DNA of 36,828 nt from Candidatus Puniceispirillum sp. (lineage in GTDB: Bacteria > Electryoneota > RPQS01 > DYHQ01): positions 1 through 36,828 of the forward strand of contig DYHQ01000008.1 of NCBI GenBank assembly GCA_020724065.1, written 5' to 3'. Below, one piece after another: positions 3,020 to 27,152 of the stretch. The position numbers and the translations under genes were made by a program. The notes under the pieces are model-generated. The model searched no databases. It had not been told where the DNA came from and saw only the letters and a list, made by a program, of their open reading frames with translations. Each line of letters starts with the position of its first letter. Position 1 is the first letter of the stretch.

Positions 3020-3868
3020 ATGGAACTTTTTCGGATCGTATTCATTCCGGTTACGTTGATTGATGTGCTCGATATTCTGGTGGTGACTTTCGTTTTCTGG
3101 AAGCTCTACCAGATTATGCGAGGGACGCGGGCGACACAGATGTTTGCGGGCCTGCTGATTCTGTTTCTCTTCGCCATTGCGGCGCAGGCGCTGAATATGA
3201 GCGGCACAAGCTGGCTGGTTCAGAGCATAACGACCGTTTGGGTCATTGCCTTTGTCATTCTTTTCCAGCCGGAGCTGCGCCGATTCCTCATGCAGCTTGG
3301 CCAGAGCCGACTTGTGCGTGTTCTCTTCAGGGCGGAAGGTGCGCGGATGCTGGATGCGGTGGCCCACGCCGCGGCGGAACTGTCGAACCGTCATCTTGGC
3401 GGGCTGATGGTCATTCAGCGCAACTCCAATATCCGTTCCATCGCGGAAAGCGGCGTTCGCATTCAAGGGGAAGTGAGTCACGAACTTCTGTTGTCTATCT
3501 TTCATCCGCGGACTCCGCTCCATGATGGCGCCGTGGTGATTACCGGAACGACTCTCGAAGCGGCCCGCTGTCTCCTTCCGCTGACCGAGAACCAGCACCT
3601 TGATTCGGAACTGGGCACGCGCCATCGAGCCGCGTTAGGGGTTACCGAAGAGCTCGATTGTGTTGCCGTCGTGATTTCGGAAGAGACGGGGAAGATTTCG
3701 ATCGCGTATGAGGGGAAATTCATCGCGCGGGGCGTGAATGAAACGGCGCTTCGGGACGCTCTGCATCGGCTGTGCGAAGGAAGCAAATTTGCCAGGAAAA
3801 AAGAGCAAAAAGAGCGCGCCGGCAAACAAAAAGGGGCACGCGTGGAAGATATGGCAGCGTCTAACTGA
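3020..3868 (+). CDS. cdaA: Diadenylate cyclase, CdaA type (c-di-AMP synthase)
   Basis: The 282-residue protein makes cyclic di-AMP from two ATP molecules. Three hydrophobic segments occupy about residues 7-82, followed by the DAC domain. The catalytic motifs are intact: DGA at 169-171 (TPLHDGAVVI) and RHR at 201-203 (GTRHRAALGVTE). Membrane anchor plus DAC domain is the CdaA/DacA layout, as opposed to soluble DisA. The usual partner genes cdaR and glmM do not follow it. Instead nth overlaps its 3' end. The last 30 residues are a Lys/Arg-rich tail encoded in that overlap. No strong ribosome binding site precedes ATG 3020, but the transmembrane start fits the family. Confidence 0.92.
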   Translation: MELFRIVFIPVTLIDVLDILVVTFVFWKLYQIMRGTRATQMFAGLLILFLFAIAAQALNMSGTSWLVQSITTVWVIAFVILFQPELRRFLMQLGQSRLVRVLFRAEGARMLDAVAHAAAELSNRHLGGLMVIQRNSNIRSIAESGVRIQGEVSHELLLSIFHPRTPLHDGAVVITGTTLEAARCLLPLTENQHLDSELGTRHRAALGVTEELDCVAVVISEETGKISIAYEGKFIARGVNETALRDALHRLCEGSKFARKKEQKERAGKQKGARVEDMAASN

Positions 3869-4466
3869 CGCCTATCCGCGTGCGACCACGGCGCTAAGTC
3901 ACATATCCCCGTTTGAACTTCTCGTTGCGACCATTCTCTCGGCTCAGTGCACGGACGAGCGAGTGAACGAGGTAACGAAGACTCTCTTTAGAAAATACCT
4001 CAAGCCCGAAGACTATCTGGCGGTGCCTGTCGAGGAATTGGAGGAGGATATCCGCCCAACCGGATTTTTTCACAATAAGGCGAAATCTCTGCGCGGACTC
4101 TGTCAGGCTCTTATCAAGACTCACAACGGCCAAGTGCCGCAGACGATGGAAGACATGGTGAAGCTGCCGGGTGTCGGACGAAAAACGGCCAATGTGGTTC
4201 TGGGTACCGCCTTTGGCTTGGCGACGGGCGTCGTGGTGGATACGCATGTGCGGCGGCTGGCCTTCCGCATGGGGCTAACATGCGAAGACGACCCCGAAAA
4301 AATTGAACAGGACTTAATGAAAATATTGCCGAGCGGAGTCTGGATAGATTTCGGTCATGTGATGATCTGGCATGGGCGCCAAGTTTGCGTCGCGCGCAAA
4401 CCGAAATGCTCGGTGTGCCCGGTGACGGACCTTTGCCCGAAAGAGGGCATAACGAGCAGCGCTTGA
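3789..4466 (+). CDS. nth: Endonuclease III (DNA glycosylase/AP lyase)
   Basis: This base-excision repair enzyme removes oxidised pyrimidines and cleaves at the abasic site. The helix-hairpin-helix LPGVGRKTANVVLG carries the catalytic Lys (Lys132), and Asp151 in VVVDTHVRR is the second catalytic residue. The C-terminal [4Fe-4S] loop is complete with C-x6-C-x2-C-x5-C spacing (Cys200, 207, 210, 216). With TTG 3789 as start the protein is 225 residues, near the family's 210-220. AAGGAAG lies 5 bases before this TTG. An upstream ATG at 3738 is possible but would add a poorly conserved 17-residue leader. The gene overlaps cdaA by 80 bases and is probably co-transcribed with it. Confidence 0.92.
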   Translation: MPGKKSKKSAPANKKGHAWKIWQRLTDAYPRATTALSHISPFELLVATILSAQCTDERVNEVTKTLFRKYLKPEDYLAVPVEELEEDIRPTGFFHNKAKSLRGLCQALIKTHNGQVPQTMEDMVKLPGVGRKTANVVLGTAFGLATGVVVDTHVRRLAFRMGLTCEDDPEKIEQDLMKILPSGVWIDFGHVMIWHGRQVCVARKPKCSVCPVTDLCPKEGITSSA

Positions 4467-4554: not shown

Positions 4555-7500
4555 CTACTCTTCAGCCTCCGCTGTCATTGGCCGTCCCGCTGCGCGATAG
4601 AGAACCGGAAGCACAATGAGCGTCAGCAAGGTGGAGGTGATGATGCCGCCGATGACCACAGTAGCCAGAGGCCGCTGGACTTCCGCTCCCACGCCCTGCG
4701 AGATTGCCATCGGGACAAATCCCAGTGCCGCGACCAGAGCGGTCATGATCACGGGTCTCATGCGCAGCGAACCGCTGGTGCGAATCGCTTCGTGGAACGA
4801 CACTCCTTCCCGCTGCAAATGTCGAATGGAAGAGACCAGCACGAGCCCGTTGAGGACAGCTATCCCCGACAGTGCGATGAAGCCGACGCCCGCCGAAATC
4901 GTGAACGGCATCCCTCGCACTGCGATGGCTAACACTCCCCCCACCGCGGCCAGGGGAACTCCACTGAAGATGAGAAGAGCATCGCGAGCAGATTTGTAGG
5001 TCAAGTAGAGAACACCGAAGATCAGCAGCAGAGCGAGCGGCACCACAATCATCAGGCGTGTTCGCGCTCGTTCCAGGTTCTCGAACTGTCCTCCATAACG
5101 AATGTAGTAGCCCGGGTCGAGGGGTACTTCATTGCTGATTCGCTCGCGCAGCTCGTTGACGAAAGAACCCACATCGCGCCCACGCACATTGCACTGCACC
5201 ACAATCCGCCGTTTTCCCCACTCGCGCGAGATGGTCGAAGGACCTTCCGTCTGATTGAGACGCGTTACCTGAGAGAGGGGTACCAGTTCTCCTGCAGGCG
5301 CCGGAAGAAGAATCTGGTCTATAGCTTCCGGAGTCTTGGTCTGAGATGGATCCATCTTCACCACCAGATCAAATCGCCGCTGCCCTTCGCGGACATCCCC
5401 CACGACGGTGCCGCCAATGGTGTGCACGACATCCAGCACGTCACCCACCGAGAGAGAATAGCGTGACAGTTTGAAACGATCCACTTCGACGCGCAAGATC
5501 GGCTGACCGGTAATCTGTTCCACATTCACATCAGCCGCTCCCCGCATATTCTTCACGATCTCCTCAATCTGCTCTGCTTTCTCCACAAGTACGTTGAGGT
5601 CGTCCCCGAATATCTTGATGCCGAGGTCCGCGCGAATGCCGGCGACCATCTCGTTAAATCTCATCTCGATGGGTTGGGTGAATACCAGATTCATTCCCGG
5701 CAGATCCGACAGCTCTTCGTCCATCCGCATCACGAGCTCCTGCTGATTTTGAGCCTTTTTCCATTCTCGTCGCGGTTTCAGGCTCATGAACACATCGGAA
5801 AGCTCGGGCCCCATGGGATCTGTAGCTACTTCGGGAGTTCCGGTACGAGTCCATATTTCCGCGATTTCATCGGGGAATTTCTCTTTCAGAATCTTCTCCA
5901 AACGCTCGCCGTTTTCCGTGGACTGTTCTAGTGAAATCCCCGCCAAGCGGATCATATTGATAACGATGCTGCCCTCGGAGAGTCTGGGAATGAACTCGGA
6001 ACCGAGCCGGGTGAAAAGCACGAAGGCTCCGACCACCAACACTGCCGCCGTGATCAGAACGGATCGTGTGTGTCGCAAAGCCCAGTTGAGACACGGCTGA
6101 TAAACTCGCCGCAACCAGCCCACCAGTCGCGGCTCGTGCTCATGGATGCGTAACGGGAGAACGGCCGCACACAGGGCAGGAATCACCGTCAAGGAAAGTA
6201 GAAGTGATCCGGTAAGAACGAACATCACCGTCAGCGCCATGGGCCGAAACATCTTGCCCTCCCAGCCTTGCAGAGTCAGGAGCGGGATATATACCAGCAT
6301 GATGATCAGCTCGCCAAAGAGTGCCGGTTTAAGCACTTCAATAATGGCATCACGGATAACCTGAAAGCGGCCTCGCCCAGGGCCCGCTTCGCCCATGCGG
6401 CGGGAGACGTTCTCGACTTGGATGACGGCATTGTCCACAGCCAAACCGAAGTCAATTGCGCCAAGACTCATCAGGCTGCCTACGATTCCGACTTGCAGCA
6501 TCAGATTGAAAGCGAATAACATCGAGAGTGGGATGGCCAGAGCCACGATGAAACTCGCCCATAGGTTTCCCAAGAGCAGAAACAGAACCACAACCACAAG
6601 AGACGCCCCAAAAAGCAAATTGTGCTGGACCGTCTCCAGCACCTGATCCACTAAGTGAGTACGGTCGTAAACCTCATGGGCATCTATTCCCTCCGGCAGA
6701 GTCTCCTTCACGGCTTCGAGTTGCTTCGACAGATCCTTCGCCACGCGATGAGAGTTTTCGCCCGTGAGCATGAATCCAAGTCCGAGAACTGCCTCGCCTT
6801 GCCCATTGTAAGTGGCTGTGGCAACGCGCAATTCGTGCCCGGTCGCCACCTCGCCGATATCGCGTACAAGAATAGGAGTGCCATTGCGGGTATCAATGAC
6901 GATCTGTTCGATGTCTTCGCGCTTGGTGAGCGCACCCACCCCCTGTACGACGAATCGCTCTCCGGCGCGATTCGTGATTCCACCACCCACATTCTGCTGC
7001 CCTCTCCGAAGTGCATCTGAAACCTCGGCCACTGTGAGATCAAGAGCAGTAAGCCTCTGCGGGTCGAGCAGCACTTGGAATTGCTTCTCGAATCCTCCCC
7101 AACTATTGACCTCCACAACTCCCGGTACAGACTGGAGCCGCGGCTTGATTATCCAATCTTGCACTTCGCGCGCGAATGTCGGTTTGCTCCGTAGCGTATC
7201 CACTACGATGTAGTGGAAGATCTCACCCAAACCAGTCGAAATGGGTCCTAACTCCGGTCTCTCTGTCCCTTCCGGGAGTTCAACCGCCGTCAACCGTTCC
7301 GCGACTTGTTGTCTCGCCCGATAGATATCCATTCCTTCCACAAAGACACAGATCACTTGTGAGAGTCCAGACTTCGAGATCGAGCGAATCTCTTCGAGGC
7401 CTGACAAACCTGTCAGTTCGCGCTCGATGGCGGCTGTGATTTGGCTCTCGATATCCTCCGCCGCATAGCCGGGAAGCGATGTGTTGACAAATACCAGGAC

Positions 7501-7632
7501 CGGCGTCGTGTCTGGGAATGCATCAAACGGTAGATTCAAGAGCGAAATGAGCCCGCCGACCGCAAGCAACACCGCCAGTGACAGCACCAACCAGCGCCGG
7601 TCAATCGCCCATCCAATAAGCCGTATCAGCAT
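4555..7632 (-). CDS. Heavy-metal efflux RND pump (CzcA/CusA family)
   Basis: The 1025-residue inner-membrane transporter has the full RND layout: TM1 (about 12-32), a first large periplasmic loop, TM2-6 (about 338-500), TM7, a second loop and TM8-12. The TM4 signature AIDFGLAVDNAVIQVENV (Asp394, Asp400) is the heavy-metal (HME) form rather than the drug-pump form. It uses the proton gradient to expel metal cations from the periplasm or cytoplasm. The substrate (Cu/Ag versus Zn/Co/Ni/Cd) cannot be settled by eye, but the Cys-rich neighbours favour a soft metal such as copper or silver. It is the last gene of its operon, starting 4 bases after the adaptor stop. No outer-membrane channel gene is present in the cluster. 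Confidence 0.93.
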   Translation of the reverse strand: MLIRLIGWAIDRRWLVLSLAVLLAVGGLISLLNLPFDAFPDTTPVLVFVNTSLPGYAAEDIESQITAAIERELTGLSGLEEIRSISKSGLSQVICVFVEGMDIYRARQQVAERLTAVELPEGTERPELGPISTGLGEIFHYIVVDTLRSKPTFAREVQDWIIKPRLQSVPGVVEVNSWGGFEKQFQVLLDPQRLTALDLTVAEVSDALRRGQQNVGGGITNRAGERFVVQGVGALTKREDIEQIVIDTRNGTPILVRDIGEVATGHELRVATATYNGQGEAVLGLGFMLTGENSHRVAKDLSKQLEAVKETLPEGIDAHEVYDRTHLVDQVLETVQHNLLFGASLVVVVLFLLLGNLWASFIVALAIPLSMLFAFNLMLQVGIVGSLMSLGAIDFGLAVDNAVIQVENVSRRMGEAGPGRGRFQVIRDAIIEVLKPALFGELIIMLVYIPLLTLQGWEGKMFRPMALTVMFVLTGSLLLSLTVIPALCAAVLPLRIHEHEPRLVGWLRRVYQPCLNWALRHTRSVLITAAVLVVGAFVLFTRLGSEFIPRLSEGSIVINMIRLAGISLEQSTENGERLEKILKEKFPDEIAEIWTRTGTPEVATDPMGPELSDVFMSLKPRREWKKAQNQQELVMRMDEELSDLPGMNLVFTQPIEMRFNEMVAGIRADLGIKIFGDDLNVLVEKAEQIEEIVKNMRGAADVNVEQITGQPILRVEVDRFKLSRYSLSVGDVLDVVHTIGGTVVGDVREGQRRFDLVVKMDPSQTKTPEAIDQILLPAPAGELVPLSQVTRLNQTEGPSTISREWGKRRIVVQCNVRGRDVGSFVNELRERISNEVPLDPGYYIRYGGQFENLERARTRLMIVVPLALLLIFGVLYLTYKSARDALLIFSGVPLAAVGGVLAIAVRGMPFTISAGVGFIALSGIAVLNGLVLVSSIRHLQREGVSFHEAIRTSGSLRMRPVIMTALVAALGFVPMAISQGVGAEVQRPLATVVIGGIITSTLLTLIVLPVLYRAAGRPMTAEAEE

Positions 7633-7636
7633 GGAC

Positions 7637-9301
7637 TCATGCTCCCTCGCCGGCGCACCCCGCCCCGAGACTGCCCTTCATGAGCTCCGTCTTGAGTAAA
7701 TAGCTTCCGCGCGTGACGACTCGCTCACCGGCATTCAGCCCGGAAACCGCATAGTGCTTGCCATCGGAGAACTCCACTTGAACTTTCCGTGGGCGGAAGC
7801 GGTCTCGTGTTTCCGAAACAAACACGACATTGCAGCAGCCTTCCCACTGAACCGCGTCGAGTGGAACCATCACGGCATTCGAGAGAGTATCGGTCGCGAT
7901 TTGCACTCGCACAAACTGATGGGCGCGCAGCGAGCTACCGTTGGGCTCCGCCTCGATACGCACCAGCCCCATGCGAGTGCTCGGATCTACACCATCAGCC
8001 ACCCAGGTCACAATTCCCCGGCAGCGGCCGAGAGCATCACCGTCACTTGACAGGGTCACCATCTGTCCCACGCGCACGCGGGGCAGTTCTCTCTCTCGCA
8101 CACGCGCTTCAACCCACAGCCGACCGGTTTCGGAGATGAGGCCGATGGATTCTCCACTTTGAATGATTGCGCCCAATTCCACGCGCTGTTCTACGAGCGT
8201 ACCGGTGTGGCGCGCGCGGATGGGAAGCGAAACGGCATCATCATCGCTAAGCCTGTCGAGGTCGTTTTCCGAGTATCCCAGGGCTTTCAGTGCACTGGCC
8301 GCTTTCCGATAGTCCGCTTCTGCTCGAAGGTGCTCGGTCTGTGCCTGCTGCAGTTCGCGCGAACTGACGAGGTTCTTTTGTCCGAGCTCTTGGGTGCGCT
8401 CATATTCCTTTTTGGCGAGTGCCAGAACCGCCGCCGCGTGTTCGCACTCGGCCTTGAGCGCGGCTCCCTCGATGGATTCGAGATAGGCCAAGATCTGCCC
8501 TTGCCGAACATGCTCCCCCGGAGACACCAGCCAGCGCGTCAGCGTTCCACTCACCAGACTCGTCACGGCGTAGGAAGCGGTCGCATCAAACTCGACCTCG
8601 GCTGGGGCTTCAATCACTTCGGTCAGCGGAATCTCGTCCACAGCCAAAATCATGAGGCCAGCTCGCTCGGCGGTTTCAACGCTGGCCAATTGAATAATGG
8701 CATCGTCTGTCGTGCAGTGAGGGGCGTTGGAACGGAATAGGGATGTGCGAGGCTTGGCGGACTCCTCTTTCTTCTCCTTCTTCTGCGTTTCCAACTCTTG
8801 TTGGTACTGCTGCTCCTGCGGGAACTTGAGGTCCGGGTTGCATAGATAGCAGTGGGATTCAGGCACGCCGTGCCCGCCACACCAATCTCCCTTCTCTTTG
8901 AATTTGGCAACCAACTCGGGATGACACTTAGTGCACTCCGACTCGGGCACTCGATGCTCCGCGCACCAATCAATCATCAGGTTCGTTTCCGACTCCGACT
9001 GAAGATTGTGGTCATGAGTGTCCTTCATCCCAGAGGCTTTTTGGAGCTCGGGATGGCAAAGATAGCATTGGGATTCAGGCAATTTGTGTTCGCTGCACCA
9101 GTCTCCTCGCTCTTTGAAAAGGGGAATCAGAGCAGGATGGCAGCGAGTGCACAGGCTGTCGGCGATGCCATGCTCTGCACAGGGTTTTCCTGAGTACTTC
9201 GTGGCGACATCGCTTTTCTCTGGCGCTTGTGACAGCACCAGAGTCGTTGCGCCCAGCGCCCCAAGGAGGGCGGCGGTCAGAATCAAGGCGCGGATTTTCA
9301 T
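7637..9301 (-). CDS. RND periplasmic adaptor with four Cys/His metal-binding modules
   Basis: The 554-residue protein starts with a signal peptide (MKIRALILTAALLGALG). Residues 41-155 contain four copies of CxxH-x6-CxxC(H/N)P: Cys41/His44/Cys51/Cys54, Cys69/His72/Cys79/Cys82, Cys113/His116/Cys123/Cys126 and Cys141/His144/Cys151/Cys154. A Lys/Glu-rich linker (about 165-185) leads to a CusB/HlyD-type membrane fusion protein, with a barrel-sandwich (VSGTLTRWLVSPGEHVRQGQ), a coiled-coil hairpin (about 280-340), and beta-barrel and membrane-proximal domains. It would bridge the RND pump to an outer-membrane exit. The modules probably capture or sense the metal. Three carry a CxxCH string that software may call haem c. 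The constant extra Cys and His ligands make metal sites more likely. The gene is preceded by GGAG. Confidence 0.9.
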   Translation of the reverse strand: MKIRALILTAALLGALGATTLVLSQAPEKSDVATKYSGKPCAEHGIADSLCTRCHPALIPLFKERGDWCSEHKLPESQCYLCHPELQKASGMKDTHDHNLQSESETNLMIDWCAEHRVPESECTKCHPELVAKFKEKGDWCGGHGVPESHCYLCNPDLKFPQEQQYQQELETQKKEKKEESAKPRTSLFRSNAPHCTTDDAIIQLASVETAERAGLMILAVDEIPLTEVIEAPAEVEFDATASYAVTSLVSGTLTRWLVSPGEHVRQGQILAYLESIEGAALKAECEHAAAVLALAKKEYERTQELGQKNLVSSRELQQAQTEHLRAEADYRKAASALKALGYSENDLDRLSDDDAVSLPIRARHTGTLVEQRVELGAIIQSGESIGLISETGRLWVEARVRERELPRVRVGQMVTLSSDGDALGRCRGIVTWVADGVDPSTRMGLVRIEAEPNGSSLRAHQFVRVQIATDTLSNAVMVPLDAVQWEGCCNVVFVSETRDRFRPRKVQVEFSDGKHYAVSGLNAGERVVTRGSYLLKTELMKGSLGAGCAGEGA

Positions 9302-9385: not shown

Positions 9386-9865
9386 TCACTCGCGAAAAAT
9401 TGCCGGTGGATTCTTTTGGAAACGCTTCATCGTCTTCTTGGAGGCGAAATAGTAGCGCTTGCCGTCGAGGTCAAAGAAGGCGGTTTTAGATTTCACGAGG
9501 CCTTTCGTGAAATCCACAGGGTCCACAAAATGTTTGCCTGCGTCATCCATCGTGACGATGTTTCCCGGCACGGCAAATCCTTTCAGCCATTTCGCCGGGT
9601 TGGAACGAAATGGCTCCTGGCAGCCGCCGCAGCAATGGTAGTAGCGCACGCCTTCTACATCCGAAAATGCAGGGGCTTCTTCGACAAGTCCCTCCCCGCC
9701 CATCACCGGGCAGGTAAAGTATTCTTTTCCGTCGCTCGTTGTCCAGACATTGCCTTCTGAGAGTTGCTCTGTGGCAGCGGGTTCGGCGGCGTGCCCGAAT
9801 CCGATATACGCCACAACTCCGAAGAGGGCGACGAGAATGACGCGTAGAGTTCGTCGTTGATTCAT
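9386..9865 (-). CDS. Exported protein with two YHS-type domains, the second degenerate
   Basis: This is a 159-residue protein with a signal peptide (MNQRRTLRVILVALFGVVAY). Domain 1 (about 48-93) has the metal-ligand pattern of YHS/TRASH domains: Cys52 in YFTCPVMGG and the YYHCCGGCQEPF cluster (Cys78, Cys79, Cys82). Domain 2 (about 112-158) repeats the fold (DPVDFTKGLVKSKTAFFDLD, then RYYFASKKTMKRF). Every Cys and the His are replaced (Asp115, Phe140, Ala141, Ser142, Thr145). It lies between the receptor and adaptor genes, so it is probably a periplasmic metallochaperone or sensor for the efflux system. The start has GGAGGA upstream. Confidence 0.85.
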   Translation of the reverse strand: MNQRRTLRVILVALFGVVAYIGFGHAAEPAATEQLSEGNVWTTSDGKEYFTCPVMGGEGLVEEAPAFSDVEGVRYYHCCGGCQEPFRSNPAKWLKGFAVPGNIVTMDDAGKHFVDPVDFTKGLVKSKTAFFDLDGKRYYFASKKTMKRFQKNPPAIFRE

Positions 9866-9959: not shown

Positions 9960-12174
9960 CTACGGCGAGCGTTGCGCATCCTTTCCGCCGAGCGAAAAAG
10001 TAAGACTGGCTACGAAAATTCTCCCGAGACGCGGGCCGTACATCAAGGCACTATCCAAGAGAGGCTGACCCGTTGTAGGGCTATACTGAAAGGGGCTATC
10101 AGGCTGCGTCCAATTGGTCAGATTCTTGATTGTTCCAGCCAAAGTCAGTGCGCCCCAGGACTTGCTTATCCTCGCATCCAACAAGACATAAGCGGGAGAT
10201 ACTGACCGTTCTCGACCTTCGGGTAGCTTTTGTGGCCCGTATAGCGCAGCTGACAATTCAGAAGAAAGGCCCGCAGCAATCCAAACTTTTTCCAGTGCTC
10301 CATTGACCGCGTAACGATACTGCAAGTTGGTTTCGTGCCATCCCGTTTGATCTTCATATTGCACATTCGTTCTTGTTCCGCCCAAGCGGAGGTTCCAACC
10401 GGAAGTATTTCTCACTGTGAATTGGAGCTCGACTCCGCGGCTGTAGGCGTTCCTTGCGTTGGAATACACAATCGCACCGACCTCACGACCGTAGGCCAAC
10501 ACGACCATACTGCTAGAGTCCGTGTAGAACGCGCTGATGTCCATCATGGCCGAATAGGTCTTCTCAACCCATCGGCGGTTGATGGCGAGGGAGCCAGATA
10601 CACTTCTTTCCGGCTTCAAGCTCTCCGAAGGAAGCACATGGTCGAAACCGGCACCAACTGCTTCGTCGAGACTGAAAATCGTGACAGGTCGAAATCCACC
10701 GCCACCTGACAAGCGAATTCCCCAAGGGTCGGTAGGCCGCCAAAGAAGTGAGCCTCGCGGGGTAGACACCCAACCGAAATCGTTGATATGTTCAAGCCGA
10801 TTTCCGGCTTGAAGTGTCCAGCCGGGATTGATATTCCATGTATACTGTGCGACGAGGCCGGGAATGCGATACAAGCGGTCGGTTGGAGAGGACAAAGCCA
10901 AATTATCGGTGTAATCCTCGAGGCGAAAGATTCCTTGAAGCAATGCGCTGTGGCCACCGTTCCACACCCGCTCCAACGATCCTTTTGCCAAGAGAATCTG
11001 CTGCAAGGCGTTGAAGGATGTCGTTCCGTACCACGATTCCTGTTTGTGCCTAACGAGGGCGCCCTCGAAAGACCATTCCCACCGTGCCGATGATTCATTC
11101 GCATAGACGAGAGAGAATTCATCGCGACTGGTCGTGATGTCGCGGCCATAGACTTCCGGGCTTCCCTTATCTTTCTCCGTCCATTTCGGTTCCCCCGCGA
11201 ATCGGTGTTCCCGATACAACCTGCCTCCGACCCTGAGGTCTCCCCACGCCATGGTCCTCGATAGGGATGTGGTGAAGTTTATCCGTTGGTATGTTGGCGT
11301 GTCTGTTACGCCATCCCCGTTGCGGTCGATTTTCTCGGGCTCTGCGCCATAGGTTCCGGACAAGCGAAAAGGTGTGTCAGCAAGTTGCTCCGAAGCACTC
11401 ACAGCCAGAGCGTGTTGCCGTGTATCGCTGCCGGAGATGTTGACCTCAAGAGACCGACTGTCAGATGGTTTCGTGGAGATACGGTTGACACCTCCCGCAA
11501 TCGCTCCGCTTCCAAAGAGATTGGAACCGCTTCCTTTGACGATTTCGACCTCCGTAACATCCGTTGCAGAGAGTCCATAGAGGCCGTACAGCGTCCCCAG
11601 ACCGGAGAAAACCGGCAAGCCGTCCATGTTGACTTCTGTATAGGACGGATCGAGGCCTTGCATTCCGATAGCGCACGATCCGCATATCGAACAAGGACGA
11701 ACTTTGAGTCCCGTTTTGTCCGAGAGAGCGGTGAGCACGCCGCCGTCGGTTGTGGATTCTCGCAGGTCTTCTGCAATGATGATTTCCTTGCGAACCGGCT
11801 CGCGCTCATCAATCCGTGAGACCTCTCGCTCCGCTTGAATCGTCACCTCTCGCATAGGCACGGGGCTTTGTTCAAGCTGGAAATTGGCGATGGTCTCACC
11901 TTCCTCGATGATCGCAATCCTTTGCTCCTGGGTCCCGTAGCCAACCAAGGAAATGCGCAGAGTGTAGTCTCCAACGGATATGTCGGAGATTCGATACTCG
12001 CCGTTCGCATCGGTAGACGCGCCTTTCTGAGTTTCTACGATAAGGATATTGGCGCCGACGAGCGGCCCCCCTACCTTGTTTTGAATATGTCCTCGCAAAA
12101 CCGCCTTGCATATCTGCAACGGAGACAAGGATTTGGAATGCGAGGATAAGCGAGAGAAGAATGTGTTTTCGCAT
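9960..12174 (-). CDS. TonB-dependent receptor, likely metal-related; frameshifted after the signal peptide
   Basis: An outer-membrane beta-barrel receptor of about 735 residues. The parts in order are: signal peptide (MRKHILLSLILAFQILVSV, from ATG 12174 with AAGGAG upstream), carboxypeptidase-regulatory-like domain (LRGHIQNKVGGPLVGANI to about ANFQLEQ), plug (MDGLPVFSGLGTLYGL, then VEIVKGSGSNLFGSGAIAGG), and barrel ending in IFVASLTFSLGG. The plug has a CSICGSC cluster, seen in receptors linked to copper and other soft metals. The signal peptide and mature part are in different frames. Removing one base from the A4 run at 12097-12100 joins them (MQGGLRGHIQNK). Without this, translation could only start at a TTG (12128) and would lack an export signal. 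It belongs to the metal operon. Confidence 0.88.
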
Positions 12175-12284: not shown

Positions 12285-12632
12285 TTAGGCAGTGAGGGTC
12301 GGGGGATGGTCAATGGAAAATGAAGGGGCTGGGAGGGGTATCACAGAGGGCGAGGTGATTTGCCCGAATAGGCAAAGTGGATTTGTGAAGGAAAAAGAAG
12401 CGAGAATGCCTGCAGCCAAGAATGAACAATGAGTCGAGCAAGTACATGGAGCGTCGCGATTTTCGTCCGCGGCATTGCAACAGTTGTTGCTGCAGCAAGG
12501 GCACGCGCTATCGCCCTCGAGTGCATCGAGGACGAAATCCCAGGCGGCCTGACCCACAGGAAGTCCGATTGCCAGCACCCAAGCAAAGAGCAGAAGATGG
12601 GATAGAATTTGTTTGGCCTTACTGTTCATCAT
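12285..12632 (-). CDS. Small exported Cys-rich protein, first gene of metal operon
   Basis: The product is about 114-115 residues (ATG 12632 or 12629). It begins with a basic N-terminus and signal peptide (MNSKAKQILSHLLLFAWVLA). A cluster of eight Cys follows (CPCCSNNCC, then CTCSTHC, about residues 43-68), then a second hydrophobic stretch and a Pro-rich tail ending DHPPTLTA. The size, Cys pairs and PP tail recall the short proteins (HYC_CC_PP or DUF2946 types) often encoded next to metal-linked TonB receptors. I cannot assign it to either with certainty. A periplasmic metal-binding or sensing role is inferred from its Cys content and its place upstream of the receptor. Confidence 0.65.
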   Translation of the reverse strand: MMNSKAKQILSHLLLFAWVLAIGLPVGQAAWDFVLDALEGDSACPCCSNNCCNAADENRDAPCTCSTHCSFLAAGILASFSFTNPLCLFGQITSPSVIPLPAPSFSIDHPPTLTA

Positions 12633-12751
12633 ATTCAAACGAGTGCGCCCGCCCCACAACGATACATATCTTCCTTCTTGTGCTCTCTTATACGGCGCGA
12701 GTGTCCCTCAGGTTCCGGCAATTGCTCGGCGGGCGACTTTAACAACGAAAA

Positions 12752-24260: not shown

Positions 24261-25127
24261 TTAGCTTATCTCCCCATTTCTGCCGGAAAATTTGTGGGCG
24301 CCTGCATATCGCATGACAGTCAAAACAACAGCTGAAAGTACCAAGCAACCCGCCATGGCCATGATGATTGACGGACTGATGGGAAGATCAAACTTCAGAG
24401 ACAGGAGTACGCCGAGCAAGGAGGAAACGAAACCCACCGCCCAGCCGAGTATCAATCGGTTTCGCCGTCGTTGTGTGAAGAGAACCGCCACGACCGGAGG
24501 AATGACCAACAGCGCGAATACCAAGAGCACCCCTGCGATTTCCACGGAAGAAGTGACGACAATTCCGAAACTTCCATAGAAGAGGAAGTCCCAGAACCCC
24601 ACCCGCCAACCCTTCTGCACTGCCGCTCTCGGGTTCTCGGAGATGGTGAAGAACCTTTCTCTAAATAGCCAATGAAGCGTTCCCACGGCGGAGTAGAGAA
24701 GAACGATTTTGAGCAATTGGTTCGGGCGAACGGTCAGGAGTGAACCGGATAGCATGTGATTGAGTTCTGCCGCACCCTCGGCGCGATGCGATAGCAACAA
24801 GATGGTCCCAGCCGTGAGAGTCCCGTAGAGGACGCCGATGAAGGCTTCCTTGGGAACGCGTTCATCCTTCGTGCGTGCCAGTGAAACAAAGACAGCCCCT
24901 ATGAGAGTAAACAATAGGGAAGCGAAGTAGCGGTAGGCTGACGCTTCCTCGAATCCAAGAGAGAGCGCCACGATGGAACCGAGGGCGGCCGCTTGTGCCA
25001 GACTGAGGTCAACGAAGATTACTCCTCGGCTGACGATATGAAATCCCAAGTAAGCATGAATGCCGGCAAGCACAAATGCACCCAGCAAAGCCCACTGAAT
25101 GAAGGGAAGAGACATGAGGTTCCACAT
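24261..25127 (-). CDS. ABC transporter permease, zinc/manganese (ZnuB, ABC-3 family)
   Basis: The 288-residue inner-membrane protein has about eight or nine transmembrane helices. Family features include GAFVLAGIHAYLGFHIVSRG and VDLSLAQAAALGS at the N-terminus, NHMLSGSLL, and SVEIAGVLLVFALLVIPPVVA near the middle of the C-terminal half. It forms the channel for a metal delivered by the adjacent binding protein, starting 2 bases after that gene's stop. No ATP-binding subunit gene is found in the operon. Zinc or manganese is the likely substrate, and zinc is favoured by the His-rich outer-membrane neighbour. Confidence 0.92.
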   Translation of the reverse strand: MWNLMSLPFIQWALLGAFVLAGIHAYLGFHIVSRGVIFVDLSLAQAAALGSIVALSLGFEEASAYRYFASLLFTLIGAVFVSLARTKDERVPKEAFIGVLYGTLTAGTILLLSHRAEGAAELNHMLSGSLLTVRPNQLLKIVLLYSAVGTLHWLFRERFFTISENPRAAVQKGWRVGFWDFLFYGSFGIVVTSSVEIAGVLLVFALLVIPPVVAVLFTQRRRNRLILGWAVGFVSSLLGVLLSLKFDLPISPSIIMAMAGCLVLSAVVLTVMRYAGAHKFSGRNGEIS

Positions 25128-25129
25128 CG

Positions 25130-26017
25130 CTACTTCGCCTCGAGAATTTGAAGAGCTTCAATCAGGTGGTCAAACAAATCAAAATAACTCGCAATTCCCG
25201 CCGCACCGCCGACCGAGGGAGGAAGCACGACTACTTTCGCCCCTGTGGCGGCGGCGATGATTCCCGGGATCTTGCCGGAGAAATAGGGCTCCCTCGCGAT
25301 GACCGAGATCGTCCGGGCCTTTATTAGTTCGATCAGTTCCGCTGTATGGGAGGGCGTCGGTTCAATGCCCGGCTTGGGTTCGACAAATCCTGCGATTTTC
25401 ACACCAAATGCCCGGGCAAAATAGGGCCAGGAATTGTGGAATGTCACAATTTCTTTGCCCTTTAGGGTTTGGGCTGCACCGTTCCATTCAGCGATTTTGG
25501 AACTCAATTCAGTCTGAAAGCGACGGAACCCTTCTTGATAGGTCTCTCCGTTGGAAGGATCCACCTGAATGAGTCCGCCCAAAATATTCTTCGCAATCAC
25601 AAGGCCGTTGTTCGGATCGAGCCAGTAATGAGGATTGCCTTGAGGATGAATATCCCCCATCGAGGCATTCACTTTCTCGGTGGGGATTTCCAGCGGAACG
25701 ATTCCTTGGGAGCAATCGACGACAACTAATTTGGCATTTCGGGAGCCATCAATAATGAGCTCTGCCCAGAAATCCAATTCCAAGCCCACTTTTAAATAGA
25801 GGTCAGCTCGCGCGACCTTGACCATGTAACTGGGCAACACCTCCACCGAATGCGGATCCGCCGTGCTTCGACAAATGTTGTCCACTTCGGCAAGCGGTCC
25901 GGCAATTTCCTTTGCAACGGATGCAAGATCAGCCGTCGAAGCGACGATGCGGACCTTGGCAAAGGCCAAGGTGGAGAGGATGGGGATAACCAGAAGATAT
26001 GCAAAGAGTCTTTTCAT
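25130..26017 (-). CDS. Periplasmic metal-binding protein (ZnuA-like, cluster A-I)
   Basis: The 295-residue solute-binding protein starts with a signal peptide (MKRLFAYLLVIPILSTLAFA). The metal ligands of the family are visible: His56 (TADPHSVEVLPSY), His130 (QGNPHYWLDPN), His194 (VTFHNSWPYFARAFG) and an acidic fourth site, probably Glu243 (AREPYFSG). The His-rich loop of many zinc-specific ZnuA proteins is missing between His56 and His130, so metal preference is not certain. ATG 26017 is preceded by GAGGAGACAGAC and lies 10 bases after the outer-membrane protein stop. An upstream in-frame extension is not part of the protein. Confidence 0.93.
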   Translation of the reverse strand: MKRLFAYLLVIPILSTLAFAKVRIVASTADLASVAKEIAGPLAEVDNICRSTADPHSVEVLPSYMVKVARADLYLKVGLELDFWAELIIDGSRNAKLVVVDCSQGIVPLEIPTEKVNASMGDIHPQGNPHYWLDPNNGLVIAKNILGGLIQVDPSNGETYQEGFRRFQTELSSKIAEWNGAAQTLKGKEIVTFHNSWPYFARAFGVKIAGFVEPKPGIEPTPSHTAELIELIKARTISVIAREPYFSGKIPGIIAAATGAKVVVLPPSVGGAAGIASYFDLFDHLIEALQILEAK

Positions 26018-26027
26018 GTCTGTCTCC

Positions 26028-27152
26028 TCAGAAGGAATGAGGTTTGTGTGGACCCAACGACCAGAGGAATTGGAGAGTCGCCGAATAGAATGGGTCGGCC
26101 ATGGCCGAACTCTCATGTCTTCGCACCAGGAGCCCAAAGCGACTCGTTTCCTCCGCTAAGGCAAAGCCGGCAAAGACTCCATAACCCGTTTGATAGGTTT
26201 CCTCAGTCTTGGCGCCCTGAGTGTAGTCATAGAACGCACCGGCGTTCCAGCGTCGCCGGAATTGATAGTCCACTGCGGTGAATGCTCCGAAGGAACGCAC
26301 ATCCGAGGTTTCGTCCTGCAGGGATGTCGTATCCTCTGAACTCCCTTCGGTGCACACTGTCCGAGAATTCCCGAGAAATTCTGCCACGAAGCTTAGCGAC
26401 CGATAGATGTCCGGTCGCCATTTCAGTTTGAAATCCAGATTCGCTAAAGTGGCATAGCGGTTCTCCGCCGGCTCATGTTCGCCTCGCAGCCATGAGGCTC
26501 CGGTTTCCAGAAAGGTTGTCTCGCCAAGGGGAACGAACGCCGAAACTCGGCTCAAAACGGCAATGTCAGAGCGAACGGTTTCGGCTTCATTCTCGTCGCC
26601 GTCCTCCTCGTGATGGTGATGATGAATTGGCAAGCCGCCGGTTTTCAGCGCGTGCGCCGAAATCGTCCATGCACTGGTTCCAATCGGGACAAGATAGGAA
26701 AGGTTGACTCCCACATCTTTCAATCCATCATCTCCAAATGCTTCTCTCAACATCAGCGGCCGTTCCATCCATGACCATTGATGTGAATGTTGTGTGTTGA
26801 GTTTGCCAAAATCGGCAAGGTATTGGCCGACTTTCATCTGAAGCCCCAGCGGAAGGCCTCGCAGCAGTGTCATATACGCCTCTTCGATTTCCATGGGTCC
26901 CTCGACGCTGTGTATGCCCAAAAAAATATCCGCGCGGGCGAAGGGGTTCAGATAGCCTGTCGCTCCAATTTCCAACTCGTGAAACTCGAGTATCGGTTTC
27001 TCCGCCTCGTCTGAGGCGGATGTGTCGTTGTGAATCGAGAGTCGAACATCGCCGATGAAGCTGATGTCCGGATTGACCATCGTCTGACCGCGGGCAAATT
27101 GCGGAACGGAAGCCAACACAAATCCCATACCGATATAGAGAATTATTTTCAT
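26028..27152 (-). CDS. Outer-membrane porin-like protein with His-rich loop
   Basis: The 374-residue exported protein (signal peptide MKIILYIGMGFVLASVPQFARG) has alternating amphipathic strands and an aromatic C-terminus ending in Phe, as in outer-membrane beta-barrels. It lacks the TonB-receptor plug. A loop near 176-195 contains HHHHHEEDGDENE, a strong candidate metal trap, and HSHQW lies at 122-126. It is the gene just before ZnuA/ZnuB, so it probably lets zinc or manganese through the outer membrane. GGAGGAGG precedes ATG 27152. The exact family is not recognised. It resembles the uncharacterised porins found next to zinc uptake genes. Confidence 0.75.
   Translation of the reverse strand: MKIILYIGMGFVLASVPQFARGQTMVNPDISFIGDVRLSIHNDTSASDEAEKPILEFHELEIGATGYLNPFARADIFLGIHSVEGPMEIEEAYMTLLRGLPLGLQMKVGQYLADFGKLNTQHSHQWSWMERPLMLREAFGDDGLKDVGVNLSYLVPIGTSAWTISAHALKTGGLPIHHHHHEEDGDENEAETVRSDIAVLSRVSAFVPLGETTFLETGASWLRGEHEPAENRYATLANLDFKLKWRPDIYRSLSFVAEFLGNSRTVCTEGSSEDTTSLQDETSDVRSFGAFTAVDYQFRRRWNAGAFYDYTQGAKTEETYQTGYGVFAGFALAEETSRFGLLVRRHESSAMADPFYSATLQFLWSLGPHKPHSF

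Follow-up and report, generated by a model that had tools for sequence, protein, structure and literature searches.

A recurrent paired Cys/His domain on an HME-RND adaptor as a candidate metal-capture arm

What does a region rich in cysteine and histidine do on a periplasmic adaptor that is encoded just before an HME-RND pump? An earlier note on the window (the whole stretch of 36,828 nucleotides analysed here) had proposed that this region captures metal for the pump, and had recommended a profile search and a structure prediction. We favor, with a probability of roughly 0.6, the reading that the arm consists of two copies of an undescribed metal-binding domain, which would capture toxic metal for the pump.

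Four Cys/His modules on an RND adaptor

The protein in question is a periplasmic adaptor of the CzcB/HlyD type, 554 amino acids long (7637..9301, minus strand). Its identity as an RND adaptor, claimed before, is confirmed by matches to HlyD_D23 (9.4e-28, 97.4 bits against a cut-off of 30) and RND_mfp (142.8 bits, above the cut-off of 94.9), and by fold matches to ZneB, CusB, MexA and AcrA. The NCBIfam CzcB/NccB model TIGR00999 was matched at 1.4e-45 with 155.5 bits, below its curated cut-off of 319.3, and the adaptor is a relative of that subfamily without belonging to it. The adaptor body spans approximately residues 220-540, and ZneB (3lnn) is its best match in the PDB both by sequence (E 3.2e-22, residues 227-537) and by fold (E 7e-24). 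In its body the window adaptor resembles the ZneB/CzcB adaptors in sequence and fold, but ZneB aligns to the body only and lacks anything equivalent to the Cys/His arm; its zinc site lies between the barrel and membrane-proximal domains (PMC4446572).

Ahead of this body, four modules in the translation fit C-x2-H-x6-C-x2-C exactly; their first residues are 41, 69, 113 and 141. Read on the minus strand, these are Cys41-His44-Cys51-Cys54 (module 1, 9140..9181), Cys69-His72-Cys79-Cys82 (module 2, 9056..9097), Cys113-His116-Cys123-Cys126 (module 3, 8924..8965) and Cys141-His144-Cys151-Cys154 followed by Asn155 (module 4, 8840..8881). The anatomy described in the earlier note holds in full: the ligand spacing is identical in all four, the distances are 28 residues between modules 1 and 2, 28 between 3 and 4, and 72 between 1 and 3, odd modules read CTRC or CTKC and even modules CYLC, and the residue after the final Cys is H, H, H and N in modules 1-4. 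Residues 41-155 were also located correctly and correspond to about 9181 to 8837, but the end given in nucleotides (8872) was too short and left out the CxxC of module 4, which extends to 8840. When residues 25-200 were shuffled 200,000 times no shuffle gave more than one module match, and the pattern is therefore not due to chance.

The spacing of the modules recurs across phyla, and in 73 of 97 intervals one module follows the next at a distance of exactly 28 residues. In an alignment of 71 pairs every Cys and the first His are fully conserved, and the second His almost fully. The Cys count should be interpreted with some caution since the pairs were picked by pattern, which makes it partly a matter of construction; this does not apply to the strongly conserved non-ligand residues, namely a D-W that precedes the first Cys, a P-E-S that precedes the second pair of ligands, and F. 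In the module count the sole variant at the His position is a Cys (L018), which is another metal ligand. The ligands of the module family are conserved as in a metal site. Some relatives have lost ligands in one module (a C to D change in L004, and the second module in L058, L059 and L061), and consequently not all sites are essential.

Three of the four modules in the window read CxxCH, and a multi-haem c-type cytochrome with haem attached to modules 1-3 therefore had to be weighed. Of 174 modules in 76 proteins, 131 have Asn directly after CxxC and just 27 have His; CxxCH is missing from all detected modules in 25 of 45 adaptors, and five of the 45 have it in every one. Since the His that would serve as haem ligand is generally absent, haem attachment cannot be the shared function. 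The Cytochrome_C7 profile did pick up the window adaptor at E = 0.39, yet with a score below its cut-off, so that the match to a described multi-haem c family that the earlier note had set against its own proposal did not appear. We regard haem binding by these modules as barely credible.

Among other candidate identities, membership of zf-CHY was rejected (15.1 bits against a cut-off of 31.3), as was membership of the B-boxes, for which zf-B_box_Trim66 gave weak matches in relatives (best 1.1e-5) and left the window pair unmatched. B-boxes and other CxxH/CxxC zinc fingers share the local C-x2-H ... C-x2-C pattern with the modules; in the B-boxes, intracellular domains of eukaryotes, additional ligands follow downstream. 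No family in Pfam or NCBIfam covers the module domain, and no description of a CxxH/CxxC adaptor domain was found in the open-licence literature.

The module pair as a predicted folding unit and its history

The structure prediction gave a confident fold for a pair of modules. Pair domain 2 (modules 3-4; 8801..8986, minus strand) was modelled by AlphaFold2 at pLDDT 94.6 and pTM 0.79, from an alignment of 71 homologous pairs and as a model that holds no metal. In a full-length model built on 41 sequences (mean pLDDT 84.0) both pairs are ordered; in pair domain 1 (modules 1-2; 9026..9193, minus strand) residues 41-90 reach a pLDDT of about 86-95. The linker between the pairs (residues 94-108; 8978..9022, minus strand) stays below 50 and is predicted to be flexible, and the N-terminus and the C-terminal tail are disordered as well. 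Since order extends to both pairs but not to the linker, the pair is the likely folding unit in these models. Despite the confident prediction the pair contains little secondary structure, as would be expected for a knuckle stabilised by metal or by disulfides.

A Foldseek search of the PDB with the pair model returned no match, and neither did a PDB search with the pair sequence. Metal is bound and passed on by the N-terminal 61 residues of CusB, and in SilB a metal-chaperone domain that also exists in stand-alone versions is fused to the adaptor (PMC4446572). The window adaptor resembles CusB in having an N-terminal extension on an HME adaptor, but CusB uses Met ligands for Cu(I)/Ag(I) and has no Cys3His knuckles. 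It resembles SilB in that a domain fused to the adaptor also stands alone, whereas the SilB chaperone is a C-terminal beta-barrel and the pairs of the window are N-terminal knuckles without a Foldseek match in the PDB. An extension of the CusB/SilB type was accordingly rejected on structure, with Cys3His knuckles in place of a Met-rich segment or a CusF-like barrel and with no match by PDB sequence or fold.

The earlier note had further proposed that the arm was built by duplication of a two-module unit. The unit itself is sustained by our comparisons: across the family mean identity is 0.59 between odd modules and 0.57 between even modules, compared with 0.48 between odd and even, and the two are distinct types. 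Within the window the most similar modules are 2 and 3 (0.58). A recent duplication in this gene, on the other hand, finds no support in the pair tree, in which each window pair has its own counterpart in relatives. Pair 1 falls together with the first pair of L015 and the only pair of L055, and pair 2 joins the second and third pairs of L015; both lie inside a Calditrichota-Zixibacteria group (support 99), in a tree that rests on 59 columns only and has modest support at its forks. Because the two pairs are not sisters, the two-pair state predates the lineage of the window. Recent duplication within a protein may have occurred elsewhere (L019, L025 and L062).

Proteins of the family carry one to three pairs, and three-module versions occur in Krumholzibacteriota and others. 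These numbers bear on the possibility that the knuckles hold structural zinc and are small docking domains for protein contacts, with a stand-alone lipoprotein, the outer-membrane factor or each other as partners, in which case the bound metal would not be cargo. Cys3His knuckles are often structural in general, the conserved D-W, P-E-S and F residues suggest a recognition surface, and the Pfam families that relatives weakly resemble are structural zinc fingers. However, one to three pairs suit a capacity for metal more than a docking surface, and outside the adaptors of heavy-metal pumps and the proteins next to them the domain is hardly ever seen. We consider a purely structural role rather unlikely.

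Pump type, distribution and gene neighbourhood

The pump gene (4555..7632, minus strand; 1025 aa) starts 4 bases downstream of the adaptor stop. Its product matches the CusA/CzcA model TIGR00914 with 1167 bits, well over the cut-off of 701, and the HME context assumed in the earlier note is thus correct. The closest solved relative is ZneA (4k0e, 698 bits, against 597 bits for CusA). The pump is of the DFG type and not of the AIAxGxxxDAA type, and it lacks the Met triad, so that membership of the HME4 Cu/Ag group (CusA) was rejected; at what we take to be the triad positions of CusA, the alignment places N, L and E. Its TMH4 motif, DFGLAVDNAVIQVEN, also differs from the DFGX3DGAX3VEN signature of HME1/HME2 (CzcA, CnrA) (PMC3637150), and membership of those groups was likewise rejected.

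All 37 pumps beside modules read DFGxxVD[SN][SA] in TMH4; these were selected by DFGx3D[SN], and a looser pattern gave the same picture. Sampled pumps without modules nearly all have DGA or AxG at this place; L128, one of the AxG-type pumps without modules, has DSS as well. Invariant Met residues adjoin invariant acids in the module-linked pumps. As a metal-site signature for the modules, however, the positions D605, M607, D613, M657 and E661 were rejected, since they are also found in DGA pumps without modules, and consequently only the D[SN][SA] variant of TMH4 tracks the modules.

The recommended profile search, run with the pair on one genome per species, found 54 loci with the module, nearly always on an HME adaptor just before the pump. 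An adaptor homologous to that of the window is present at 48 of the 54 and a pump at 46, and most of the remaining loci end at a contig edge. The loci, most of them in metagenome bins, belong to Calditrichota, Zixibacteria, Myxococcota, Planctomycetota, Krumholzibacteriota, Gemmatimonadota and Pseudomonadota, and two planctomycete plasmids carry the domain. At least seven bacterial phyla therefore have the domain on this kind of pump; it is not unique to this genome, and is widespread and undescribed. The module region occurs once in the window genome, in six of 61 sampled genomes near that of the window (its own included) and in five of 39 genomes of its phylum. Within the 61 genomes every adaptor at least 42% identical to that of the window (42-65%) has modules, and none of the best-matching adaptors at 33% identity or less does.

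At about 20 Myxococcota loci one pair also stands alone, in the short lipoprotein-like product of the ORF immediately before the adaptor, which is where a chaperone or carrier would be expected. In L054 (Myxococcus sp., 5809-6507) a module region with one intact module is fused to a thioredoxin domain (Thioredoxin, 3.5e-7); no HME pump was found near this gene. A protein of the thioredoxin fold also adjoins the pump in L022. Both are points in favor of a metal or redox sensor, in which metal binding or disulfide formation in the arm would alter the conformation of the adaptor and so gate the pump without handing over the ion, and precedents exist in that CusB activates CusA and ZneB changes conformation upon Zn binding (PMC4446572). 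Against this, the invariant His at +3 favors metal over pure disulfide chemistry, and the stand-alone lipoprotein is easier to explain as a carrier. We judge a sensor to be quite improbable.

Further genes upstream of the adaptor on the minus strand encode a likely metal-binding protein with two stretches of the YHS/TRASH type (9386..9865; YHS 5.7e-10), a TonB-dependent outer-membrane receptor with CSICGSC in its plug (9960..12128; TonB_dep_Rec 6.2e-24, Plug 6.2e-9), and a small, probably secreted Cys-rich protein (CPCCSNNCC...; 12285..12659) without a Pfam or NCBIfam match. The receptor, part of a putative operon, may serve import or sensing of the same metal. ORFs of this small, Cys-rich kind also lie upstream of the adaptor in L138 (8216-8524, minus strand), L139 (6181-6471), L014 (5377-5691), L016 (5376-5702) and L049 (5263-5673); none has a Pfam match, nor an NCBIfam match among those tried, and they might represent a further metal protein of the periplasm. 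An outer-membrane factor was not found next to these genes of the window; OEP-family proteins are encoded on other contigs of the genome.

Related loci have genes for a P1B-ATPase, a CDF protein and an ArsR-family regulator as neighbours, and on a planctomycete plasmid cadA and czcD lie near the module locus; together these neighbours point to divalent metals. Elsewhere in the window (24261-26137, minus strand) a ZnuA-type metal-binding protein (7.4e-57) and an ABC-3 metal permease (3e-34) are encoded, a probable Zn/Mn importer. In L139, a related genome, a rhodanese with an apparent ArsR-like N-terminus (5292-5846) and a sulfide-dehydrogenase-like flavoprotein (3194-4432), both on the minus strand, are located upstream of the adaptor locus and hint at a link to sulfur.

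A proposed metal-capture arm

Five lines of evidence make a metal-capture arm the best explanation: the invariant ligands, the confident fold of the pair, the fixed linkage to an HME pump, the stand-alone lipoprotein, and the exclusion of a cytochrome c. According to our proposal each copy of the domain would form a compact unit of two C-x2-H-x6-C-x2-C knuckles, with a single metal ion probably bound by the Cys3His ligands of each, which would allow for as many as four ions per adaptor; we infer this stoichiometry, since the predicted models contain no metal. Tethered by flexible linkers in front of the adaptor body, within the periplasm, the pairs would collect toxic metal and pass it to the neighbouring HME-RND pump; Zn, Cd, Co or another divalent ion of soft or borderline character is the likeliest cargo. 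The N-terminus of CusB and the chaperone domain of SilB serve as precedents for such a role, although their folds are unrelated to that of the pair. The ligand pattern, its conservation and the genetic link to the pump are observed and the pair fold is predicted, whereas metal binding, the identity of the metal and its transfer are, like the stoichiometry, inferred; the Cys residues could be oxidised in the periplasm.

The C-terminal tail of the adaptor (residues 544-554; 7640..7672, minus strand) is disordered in the full-length model and contains a GAGC motif. In the GAGC[C] tail Cys549 is present in all 41 aligned module-bearing adaptors, and the following residue is Cys in 39 of them and Ala in the window, which makes the tail a possible second thiol site. 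As a marker of the modules the motif was rejected, since the module-less adaptors L092 and L094 have GAGC too. A Cys-Cys pair at 489-490 occurs in 20 of the 41. More tentatively, metal might move in a relay from the knuckle-pair lipoprotein and the adaptor arm to the GAGCC tail, and from there to the mixed Asp/Met/Glu site of a pump with the unusual DFGx3D[SN][SA] signature. Such a cysteine relay would parallel the Met-based CusF-CusB-CusA route, with an unrelated domain and ligand set and probably another metal.

In conclusion, HME adaptors with an additional domain for metal binding are already known in principle; the novelty appears to lie in this domain itself, in the ligands it uses and in its association with one type of pump. 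It gives the adaptor and lipoprotein families a domain that can be named, for which neither Pfam nor NCBIfam has an entry, and it marks a set of HME pumps that is apparently unclassified. Periplasmic metal uptake by HME pumps has been worked out mainly for the Met-based Cu/Ag system, and a recurrent Cys3His domain offers a clean system in which to ask whether divalent-metal pumps use dedicated capture domains too.
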